A stretch of DNA of 24,701 bases from a virus, in the IMG/VR virus record IMGVR_UViG_3300027782_000348, positions 1-24,701 of that record; one strand, written 5' to 3'. The first letter of the stretch is position 1, and the number at the start of each line of letters is the position of its first letter. The notes beneath the pieces were generated by a model. The model had not been told where the DNA came from, searched no databases, and saw only the letters and a list, made by a program, of their open reading frames with translations. This document shows, one piece after another, positions 1,623 through 7,008 of this stretch. The position numbers were made by a program, and so were the translations under genes.

Positions 1623-1937
1623 ATGAGCAACGACATCAGTTTGACTGGGCCTGCCATTGTTATTAAGAATGACTGCATCAGACCCTGGAATATCGGGGCG
1701 AATTATCTGATCCGGACCGTGACGATGATTGACACGGGCCGGCTGGTGGAGGTGACGCCGATGGAACTGGTCCTTGAGGATGCGGCGTGGGTTGCGGATA
1801 CCGGTCGTTTTTCGGATGCGCTGAAAAAATCGGAGTTCAGCGAGGTGGAGCCGTTCCCTGCCGGCCGGGTCATCATCGGTCGAGGATCGATTATCGATGC
1901 GGTTGAAATCTCCAACCTTCCGATGAAACAGAAATGA
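1623..1937 (+). CDS. DUF6948-like phage protein (104 aa)
   Basis: The ATG at 1623 follows the leader AGAACAAAAAT. The second half reads like the DUF6948 family of small phage proteins: LIRTVTMIDTGRLVEV, then VLEDAAWVADTGRFSDAL, EVEPFPAGRVIIGRGSIIDA. This is recalled, not searched. Function of that family is unknown. It is probably a compact beta-rich domain with no membrane segment. The gene heads a run of ATGA/GTGA-coupled genes reaching 3513 and ends in an ATGA overlap with the low-complexity gene at 1934. Confidence 0.7.
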   Translation: MSNDISLTGPAIVIKNDCIRPWNIGANYLIRTVTMIDTGRLVEVTPMELVLEDAAWVADTGRFSDALKKSEFSEVEPFPAGRVIIGRGSIIDAVEISNLPMKQK

Positions 1938-2068
1938 ACGCCACAATGCTGCGCGCCGGATGGTCGTGGTCGTGGTCGAGGACGTGGTCGAGGTCGGGGT
2001 CGGGATCGTGGGCGGGGTCGGGGTCGTGGTCGTGGTCGTGTTCGAGGTCGAGGGCGAGGGTGACATAA
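1934..2068 (+). CDS. Low-complexity Ser-Trp/Arg/Gly repeat microprotein (44 aa)
   Basis: The ATG at 1934 overlaps the previous stop as ATGA, the coupling used for most real genes here. After nine residues the hexamer repeat GGTCGN is read as TGG/AGG/GGG-TCG, giving alternating WS, RS and GS dipeptides, before a short RARVT end and TAA at 2066-2068. The repeat has no stop in several frames: another plus frame gives a Val-rich peptide, and the minus strand gives His-Asp and Pro-Asp dipeptides. So the open frame alone proves little. The coupled start is the only positive evidence for translation. Confidence 0.4.
   Translation: MNATMLRAGWSWSWSRTWSRSGSGSWAGSGSWSWSCSRSRARVT
1962..2057 (+). repeat. 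GGTCGN hexanucleotide tandem repeat (16 units)
   Basis: Sixteen consecutive 6-base units fit GGTCGN. Eleven match exactly and five carry one substitution (GGACGT, GATCGT, GGGCGG, GTTCGA, GGGCGA). The sixth base varies among T, A and G. The tract is strongly G-rich on the plus strand and unlike the flanking AT-richer sequence. Confidence 0.9.
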
Positions 2069-2116: not shown

Positions 2117-2275
2117 ATGAGCGCATACATATACATTATAATTGGTATCTGTTGGTTGTTGAGCATTGTTGGTATAACAATGTTTTTGAGAGAATGCAAT
2201 CGGCGACCGTGTCCTGCGTGTCGTGGTATCGGGAGCCGATATTGTCGGGTGTGCGATGGGGAGGGAGTATTGTGA
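2117..2275 (+). CDS. Small membrane protein with paired CxxCxGxG zinc motifs (52 aa)
   Basis: The ATG at 2117 opens 52 codons ending TGA at 2273-2275, which overlaps the GTG of the methyltransferase as GTGA. Residues 4-24 form one strongly hydrophobic segment (AYIYIIIGICWLLSIVGITM), a good transmembrane helix. A basic stretch follows (RECNRR), then CPACRGIG (32-39) and CRVCDGEG (43-50). These are two C-x2-C-x-G-x-G motifs like the zinc-binding repeats of DnaJ. One pair would co-ordinate one Zn on the cytoplasmic side. This is seen directly; the function is unknown. No clear ribosome-binding site precedes it. Confidence 0.65.
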   Translation: MSAYIYIIIGICWLLSIVGITMFLRECNRRPCPACRGIGSRYCRVCDGEGVL

Positions 2276-5762: not shown

Positions 5763-6562
5763 ACCATCACACAGTCGTCGGTCGGATCATCAATGAAACA
5801 ATGCCGGCAGAGAAGTATCACGCGGTCCAGGCTCTATCGAAGTCGATGATGGCCAAGCTGCTGAAATCGCCTGCCCATTATCGAGCCGCACAGGAGGAGC
5901 GCCAAGAGCCGTCGAAGGCGATGCAACTTGGCACTGCCATCCACACCGCTGTCTTGGAGCCTGACCTGTACACCGATGTTGTGGCCGTGACCCCCGATGG
6001 TATCGACGGACGCACCAAGGAGGGCAAAGCGTGGAAGGACGCTAACAAGGACCGCATCTGTCTCAACAATACGGAGAACCGCGATGTGCAGGGTGTTGCT
6101 CGCTCGATCCGCAGTCATCCATTCTGGTCCATCTACCAAGCTCCTCATCGCATCGAGGCGAGCGTGTTCGGGCTGGACGCGGATACCGATATCGCGATCA
6201 AGGCTCGTCCTGATCTGTGGGTGGAGGACCATACCGTCGTCGACATCAAGACAACCGATGACGCTTCACCTGAAGCATTCACTCGTACCGTCCTGAACTT
6301 TGGATACCATATCCAAGCGGCGCATTACTTGGCTATGACCGGTGCCGATCATTTCGCTTTTGTCGCTGTCGAGCGCACCGCTCCATACGCTGTCGGGGTC
6401 TATCGTCTCGACTCGGAATGGTTGCAGGCCGGCGAGAATATGCGGCGCAAGGCGATCACGTTGTTGCACGAATGCCAGGCACTGGACAAGTGGCCTGCGT
6501 ATCCGACAACTACGCAAACTCTTTCATGCCCAAAGTGGGTGTTAAACAAGTCGGAAAACTAA
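5759..6562 (+). CDS. recE: RecE-like PD-(D/E)XK exonuclease (DUF3799-type)
   Basis: The 267-aa product reads as a RecE/exonuclease VIII-type nuclease. It has LSKSMMAKLLKSPAHYRAAQ (27-46), GTAIHTAVLEPDLY with the conserved His, and ARPDLW...VVDIKTTDD, the Asp and the D-x-K of the PD-(D/E)XK active site. A helix with YHIQAAHYLAMTG follows, matching the Gln-x-x-x-Tyr region. Such enzymes degrade the 5' strand of duplex ends, leaving ssDNA for the annealase encoded immediately upstream (ATGA overlap). Length fits the nuclease domain alone. Confidence 0.85.
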   Translation: MNHHTVVGRIINETMPAEKYHAVQALSKSMMAKLLKSPAHYRAAQEERQEPSKAMQLGTAIHTAVLEPDLYTDVVAVTPDGIDGRTKEGKAWKDANKDRICLNNTENRDVQGVARSIRSHPFWSIYQAPHRIEASVFGLDADTDIAIKARPDLWVEDHTVVDIKTTDDASPEAFTRTVLNFGYHIQAAHYLAMTGADHFAFVAVERTAPYAVGVYRLDSEWLQAGENMRRKAITLLHECQALDKWPAYPTTTQTLSCPKWVLNKSEN

Positions 6563-6579
6563 ATCAATAAATAAGTATT

Positions 6580-7008
6580 ATGTTCAAAGTCAATCGACAG
6601 GATGGTGCCGCGCAATTCATCAACACCGAGGGCGATTTCGTCGTCACCGTCTCCAAGGTGGAGGAGGCGCTTGATAACAAGGGTCGCGAAGTGTGCAAGG
6701 TGACGTTCAAGACCGACGACGGATCCTCGACCAGCGACCGGTTCATCAACCAGGAGAACACTTGGTTCCGCGTGAACCAGTTGGTTGCGGCGACCAACCA
6801 CAATGTTCCTGACGGGACCGAGGTCGATTTCCTCGGCAAGAAGGGAAGTTTTGGTGAGTTCATCAAGGCGATGACTGGCCTGAAGCTCATCATCGTTGCT
6901 CGTTTTGAGGAGTACGTTGATCAGGCCGGCGAGAAGAAGAAGATCATCCGGGTAAAGAACATGAAGGCTGTCGCTCCGGTCGCCGCCGAGGACAACTTGC
7001 CGTACTAA
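6580..7008 (+). CDS. DUF669-like ssDNA-binding protein
   Basis: The 142-aa product follows RecE by 17 bases. It resembles DUF669-type phage proteins placed next to RecE/RecT or replication genes: an all-beta start (QFINTEGDFVVTVSKVEEAL), an NQENTWFRVNQL segment, and a conserved LKLIIVARFEEYVD strand. It ends AEDNLPY, an acidic-hydrophobic tip like the DDxPF tail of SSB proteins that binds partner proteins. The role in coating ssDNA during recombination or replication is inferred from context and this tail. The ATG at 6580 has an AT-rich leader with no Shine-Dalgarno. Confidence 0.65.
   Translation: MFKVNRQDGAAQFINTEGDFVVTVSKVEEALDNKGREVCKVTFKTDDGSSTSDRFINQENTWFRVNQLVAATNHNVPDGTEVDFLGKKGSFGEFIKAMTGLKLIIVARFEEYVDQAGEKKKIIRVKNMKAVAPVAAEDNLPY

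Follow-up and report, generated by a model that had tools for sequence, protein, structure and literature searches.

A putative two-gene unit of environmental phages: a predicted Sm-like protein and an overlapping gene for a Ser-alternating Trp/Arg/Gly microprotein

The window analysed here is the whole 24,701-nucleotide stretch of the IMG/VR virus record IMGVR_UViG_3300027782_000348. In its early region, together with genes for RecT, exonuclease, SSB, resolvase, helicase and primase, lies a pair of small overlapping genes with the following features.

1623–1937, + strand: gene 1, a predicted Sm-like (SH3-type beta-barrel) protein of 104 aa (AF2 model, Foldseek, 130 IMG/VR loci)
1934–2068, + strand: gene 2, a microprotein of 44 aa, made of a leader and (W/R/G)-Ser dipeptides (homologous ORF in the corresponding position of type I and type II loci)
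1934–1937, + strand: ATGA stop/start overlap, probable translational coupling (NTGA overlap in type I loci)
1934–1960, + strand: leader MNATMLRAG, fits the family consensus (52 distinct leader DNAs)
1961–2060, + strand: hexamer array NGGTCG of about 16 units, read as (Trp/Arg/Gly)-Ser (TRF and unit listing)
1588–2115, + strand: block with both genes of the unit, without counterpart in the close relatives L028 and L029 (blastn breaks, junction sequences)

The ATG of gene 2 overlaps the TGA stop of the ORF at 1623–1937 as ATGA, exactly as an earlier note on this DNA had described, and the gene 2 product is MNATMLRAGWSWSWSRTWSRSGSGSWAGSGSWSWSCSRSRARVT. The array is by far the highest-scoring tandem repeat of the window (TRF, period 6, positions 1961–2050, score 103), and past 2050 it runs on imperfectly to 2060, giving 16 GGNCGN-type units, which extend from 1962 to 2060. 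Pattern GGNCGNGGNCGN has only two other occurrences in the 24.7 kb, so that the array is far beyond chance. The number of sixteen hexamers stated earlier is correct, but they do not directly follow the start codon, as the nine-codon leader MNATMLRAG lies between. The microprotein is basic with a calculated pI of about 12 and the gene 1 protein of the window is acidic (pI 4.8). A small DnaJ zinc-finger-like protein is encoded after the unit in the window (2117–2275, +) and in L108 (3400–3741) / MW202573.1; it has CxxCxGxG-type motifs (CPACRGIG...CRVCDGEG; CSACNGSG...CWACKGKG) and matches phrog_11137 with E 5e-5.

Since the GGTCGN repeat is open in nearly every frame, and in several frames on both strands as had been noted before, the frame in use had to be tested by comparison. 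The gene 1 protein has 25 close relatives in IMG/VR, and the array lies behind nearly all of those that have enough DNA. The DNA unit of the array varies among these relatives and is NGGTCG, NGGTCT, NGGTCA, NGGAGC or NGGAGT. Only in the frame of the overlapping ATG is the product constant, i.e. Ser alternating with Trp, Arg or Gly. In the type I array ORFs (those behind relatives of the window's gene 1) a leader with the consensus M-N-A-A-[IV]-L-R-[TA]-G-[FYW]-D is read in the same frame as the array and is followed by 12–50 (W/R/G)-Ser dipeptides. A comparison of 52 distinct leader DNAs shows Gly9 in every one, with each of the four Gly codons represented; Arg7 is present in 48 with all six Arg codons in use, and Leu6 is encoded by six codons. 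Differences between close leaders fall at third positions of the gene 2 frame in 281 cases, against 153 and 120 at the other two. This amounts to purifying selection on the translated peptide. Serine of the array is likewise retained across TCN and AGY codons (TCG, TCA, TCT, AGC, AGT). Because leader and serine are kept through synonymous codons, our results indicate that the microprotein is selected as a protein and not as a DNA or RNA spacer. The conserved leader codons and the switching of Ser codons thus bear out the alternating Ser-Trp/Arg/Gly reading put forward in the earlier note and speak against its suggestion of a mere spacer.

Two other readings of the array were considered and rejected. 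Antisense repeat ORFs encoding (Thr/Ser/Pro) or (Asp/His) have no conserved leader and are regarded as shadows. The array frame at 1960 also runs on into the methyltransferase downstream, as an ORF of 318 aa, but such a fusion was dismissed as a frame that is merely open: methyltransferase relatives in L028 and L029 have no array at all, and the PHROG methyltransferase match begins at residue 105.

The partner of the microprotein, which was the key fact absent from the earlier note, is the upstream Sm-like gene. The AF2 model of the type I protein (62-row alignment) is a beta-barrel with a mean pLDDT of 85 and a core above 93. Nearly all of the top 50 Foldseek matches in PDB are Sm, LSm or SmAP proteins with a probability of 1.00; TM (target) reaches 0.79 and rmsd to archaeal SmAP1 is about 1.5 A, with modest to weak E-values (best 2.4e-3 in PDB). 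A divergent second family, type II, described below, gives the same Sm/LSm result with better Foldseek E-values (best 6.1e-4). We conclude with high confidence that gene 1 is predicted to have the Sm/LSm fold, a helix followed by a strongly bent five-stranded barrel. Sequence profiles do not recover it: type I has no Pfam or NCBIfam match, with LSM/Hfq models unmatched at E 0.1, type II has no Pfam LSM/Hfq match at the same threshold, no PHROG was found for gene 1 below 0.03, and sequence searches of PDB gave nothing convincing. Both families are acidic with a median pI of about 5. At the Sm2 position Arg87-Gly88 is found in about 84% of type I proteins and is absent in type II; in Sm1 the Gly and Leu are present and the Asn is not evident. 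Gene 2 (44 aa) has no Pfam match and no RRM.

The array and gene 1 are closely linked. An alignment-based scan added 80 further loci, the best of 130 gene 1 relatives in IMG/VR, plus two loci on MAG contigs; an array ORF lies immediately downstream of type I gene 1 in about 75 of 79 assessable IMG/VR loci. It is missing in four (L150, L159, L163, L178) and degenerate in two of the array-positive loci (L122, L124). The usual gene 2 start is an ATGA or GTGA overlap, and NTGA overlap with the gene 1 stop was found in 57 of 91 type I array ORFs. Control loci, picked via the methyltransferase and independent of arrays, carried none (0/76; 666 kb), and no other neighbour gene was found to be conserved across the loci. 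The reverse scan with six GGTCGN units in IMG/VR contigs points in the same direction: 79 arrays were analysed among the matches listed, and among these matches a type I gene 1 was found upstream by profile in 43 of 60 assessable arrays. Several of the remaining 17 arrays stand behind the type II gene, whose protein reads MKxIVxVxEVEGEGLEALLGxxVTLFCxNYIYTGKLVGVN... and is a distant relative of type I (hhalign probability 96.8%, E 2.5e-10). Scanning for this family gave 80 loci, with the array ORF present in 74 of the 76 that could be assessed. The leaders of type II are different and basic, e.g. MRASKQKYRS; a basic leader is present in 59 of 71 type II array ORFs versus 0 of 114 in type I. The sequences indicate that gene 1 has kept this kind of partner in both divergent families and that the type of leader follows the family. 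Fusion of gene 1 with the array was not seen among 275 Sm-like ORFs.

Variations of the unit were also noted. In L021 a GIY-YIG/NUMOD-like ORF (6256–6770), identified by reading the sequence, separates gene 1 from the array; it resembles a modular part of GIY-YIG/HNH homing endonucleases, as if inserted into the unit, and the array ORF persists behind it. Tandem pairs of array ORFs occur in L005, L018, L019, L229 and L239, and in L018 and L019 the second one opens with a repeat of leader DNA (ATGAACCAGGCATTGAAACGTGTGG).

The unit is gained and lost as a block. Two close relatives, L028 and L029, share about 90–96% DNA identity with the window over much of the flanks and lack exactly the two genes of the unit with an intact junction (blastn). 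The two genes co-occur and are lost together. The arrays themselves are unstable. Near-identical phages differ by whole units (L018 versus L019, L137 versus L144), so the slippage-like instability supposed earlier is real. Array statistics were collected from 225 arrays with 5769 units, ten "TCC" arrays being antisense readings of AGC whose discounting leaves the result unchanged. Within arrays, heterozygosity is 0.62 at base 1 of the variable codon and 0.04–0.09 at each of the remaining five, among them the synonymous third base of Ser, from which it follows that units are homogenised by slippage or recombination. The dominant Ser codon switches between arrays (TCG, TCA, AGC, TCT). The variable residue is Arg in 34%, Gly in 30% and Trp in 28% of units; W:R:G is near-multinomial across arrays, with a dispersion of 1.85 as compared to 18.7 for the choice of Ser codon, and adjacent units show no correlation. 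The simplest reading is that a W/R/G mix near 1:1:1 is selected without regard to order, although a mutational peculiarity of the variable base may be an alternative source of the diversity. It is important to note that about 32 of 159 related contigs (~20%) stop within roughly 320 bp of gene 1. Contigs end at the array because it breaks assemblies, and exact copy numbers and lengths from short reads are therefore uncertain.

Several known systems resemble parts of the unit. By its predicted fold gene 1 resembles the Sm/LSm/Hfq superfamily, with archaeal SmAP and the Sm and Lsm rings of eukaryotes. In type II an N-terminal helix comes with the barrel, and most type I proteins have the Arg-Gly at the Sm2 position. 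Gene 1 differs in being acidic, in giving no sequence-profile match (Pfam, NCBIfam, PDB), in the helix inserted between strands in type I, in that the canonical Sm1 Asn is not evident, and in being followed by a separate low-complexity gene. Foldseek also matches gene 1 to DUF6948 / "Sm-like domain" proteins of uncultured Caudovirales phages (BFVD), but with E-values between 6e-4 and 6e-2 and an identity of at most about 20%; Pfam search assigned no member of the gene 1 family to a DUF, and no mention of DUF6948 was found in the open-access literature. Eukaryotic SR proteins share Ser/Arg alternation in a low-complexity chain that is thought to be RNA-associated. In gene 2, however, Trp and Gly are as frequent as Arg, there is no RRM, and the chain is a separate phage microprotein. 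RS domains are defined by at least 70% Ser+Arg (PMC9479744); the microprotein of the window has 19 of 44 residues (43%) and lies below this value. The RG/RGG tails of SmB/D1/D3 and other RNA-binding proteins are, like gene 2, basic, Gly/Arg-containing disordered chains that go with an Sm protein, whereas gene 2 is its own overlapping gene in another frame, is Ser-alternating and has one third Trp at variable positions. UOF78858.1 of Myoviridae sp. ctTUS972 (MW202573.1, Manatee Spring) belongs to the same family: it reads MNAAIIRAGLDASWSWSWS..., stands directly after an Sm-like gene and is annotated as hypothetical only, with no stated function or family. The overlapping pair of small genes with joint gain and loss is also a feature of type II toxin-antitoxin modules. 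No description of a pair of Sm-like and repeat genes was found in the open-access literature, though one may exist elsewhere. None of the libraries searched contains the microprotein family or the two-gene unit; the Sm fold and phage proteins labelled Sm-like are already known.

As far as can be read from linkage and loss, the two products probably act together. The reading we prefer, with a probability of roughly 0.42, is that the microprotein serves as a disordered cationic aromatic nucleic-acid-binding tail, in trans to the Sm-like barrel, in an early phage ribonucleoprotein. Translational coupling would keep the two products in proportion. The leader may dock on the Sm-like barrel, which we propose because leader type follows Sm-like type; this is a correlation only. 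The disordered chain of Ser-spaced Arg, Trp and Gly would bind RNA or single-stranded DNA, with Arg contributing charge, Trp stacking, and Gly and Ser acting as flexible spacers. In this way the chain might supply in trans what RG tails and RS domains give to eukaryotic RNA-binding proteins. The likely outcome would be a ribonucleoprotein particle or condensate of early infection that captures phage or host RNA. Array length would be free to change by slippage or recombination, since under this proposal only composition and alternation matter. It is possible, if somewhat short of even odds, that this amounts to an undescribed phage RNP system in which an Sm-like barrel is joined by a coupled Ser-alternating W/R/G chain as its disordered RNA-binding or condensate part.

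The ribonucleoprotein reading is favoured by the acidic partner (pI about 5) of a microprotein with pI about 12, by the near-universal pairing in two families as opposed to 0/76 controls, and by the block loss in L028 and L029. It is weakened by the weak type I Foldseek E-values, by the Sm1 Asn that is not evident and by the lack of Sm2 Arg-Gly in type II. Moreover, Sm-like proteins of pI ~5 are not typical RNA binders, and Sm-type barrels can have non-RNA roles. Arg-rich low-complexity regions were found in a survey to be enriched in RNA-binding proteins of prokaryotes (PMC6821194). In low-complexity regions of prokaryotes and phages, Trp and Arg are in general uncommon (PMC6821194), which makes the gene 2 family unusual.

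Other functions of the translated pair have to be weighed. The two proteins could act on phage DNA in ssDNA annealing, recombination, condensation or packaging, with a protamine-like or single-strand-binding microprotein. RecT, exonuclease, SSB, resolvase and primase genes are near the unit in the window and RecT and Gam genes in L109, and a basic, aromatic chain would suit DNA as well as RNA. The Sm fold, however, points more to RNA than to DNA, and the neighbourhood says little as the neighbours are not conserved across loci; we regard a DNA role as unlikely. The unit is reminiscent of type II toxin-antitoxin modules in the order and overlap of its genes, their small size, the opposite charges of the products and the way both genes are gained and lost jointly. 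If the unit were toxin-antitoxin-like or membrane-active, the cationic Trp/Arg repeat would be toxic or exclude other phages and the acidic Sm-like protein would neutralise it. It is true that Trp/Arg-rich peptides are often antimicrobial. Strict Ser alternation with about one third Gly is nevertheless unusual for a membrane-active peptide, the arrays vary freely in length and order, the predicted Sm fold of the partner is no known antitoxin fold, and, unlike toxin-antitoxin modules, the unit is hardly ever found on plasmids or in cellular genomes. Such a function is in our view rather improbable.

The array could also matter without gene 2 being the relevant product. As a nucleic acid it could be a G-rich structured element, a slippage-prone spacer or a recombination signal, its translation being incidental. 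GG hardly varies from unit to unit (X3 is G in 5244 of 5769), and third codon positions of Arg and Gly vary less than synonymy permits. The invariance of GG can be explained by the protein as well, because NGG is the sole codon box uniting Trp, Arg and Gly. Against such an element stand the protein-level constraint on the leader in a single frame and the serine kept through TCG, TCA, TCT, AGC and AGT. Vienna folding of the ORF is no better than that of shuffles (z = −0.15) and there is no Rfam match, which disagrees with the structured RNA element suggested in the earlier note; the whole explanation is very improbable. Even less credible is a (Gly-Arg)n chain made in the gene 1 frame by readthrough or frameshift, similar to the RG tail of SmD1. 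In the window the gene 1 frame does run past the TGA as DGRGRGRGRGRGRG, ending at 2061, but in relatives this frame either lies behind additional stops or gives Gly-Leu where the arrays are TCT and Gly-Ala where they are AGC, none of the 275 Sm-like ORFs is fused to an XS tract, and the leader is selected in the other frame. We rejected an SmD1-like tail on gene 1 for these relatives and missing fusions. A chance repeat, an assembly artefact or a functionless acquired host repeat has next to no probability. The array does terminate many contigs and does not stay stable from one close relative to the next, yet place, frame, leader and composition are conserved in well over 100 independent contigs and two families. 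Specifically, an artefact is disfavoured by L003, an IMG/VR contig of different length with an identical 6 kb, and by homologous arrays in dozens of independent contigs. A repeat acquired from the host, also proposed earlier, is difficult to reconcile with an array that accompanies one particular phage gene in each of two divergent families.

If the ribonucleoprotein reading is true, annotation pipelines have missed or called hypothetical a two-gene system common to hundreds of environmental phages, in which an Sm-type protein is paired with a repeat chain maintained in composition but not in sequence. It would be a parallel in prokaryotic viruses to eukaryotic Sm cores with RG and RS low-complexity chains, and a simple natural test bed for Arg/aromatic/Gly low-complexity chains with non-eukaryotic Sm proteins. 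Phage control of RNA or condensate-based cell take-over could come to light as well. The array, with its synonymous positions homogenised and non-synonymous positions diverse, would be a clear example of a disordered protein selected for its composition.

Regarding the host, the gene family was found in only two cellular-genome records, both of them contigs of archaea-labelled MAGs, which gives no support to the Planctomycetes-Verrucomicrobia-type host hinted at in the earlier note. One of these, L109 from a Bathyarchaeota-labelled MAG, carries RecT, Gam and integrase genes besides the unit and is either a temperate phage or a misbinned viral contig; both MAG matches may be misbinned viral contigs. 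The plasmid collection gave no match, and no cultured phage was found to carry the unit. The two named phage records with the unit are both from Manatee Spring and state no host. In the window, CAT is repeated seven times at 387–407, directly before an ORF at 406. A-rich stretches (ACAAAAATG), not Shine-Dalgarno sequences, precede several gene starts between positions 1 and 5000 of the window, and these starts are a possible sign of a host group whose initiation is SD-poor.
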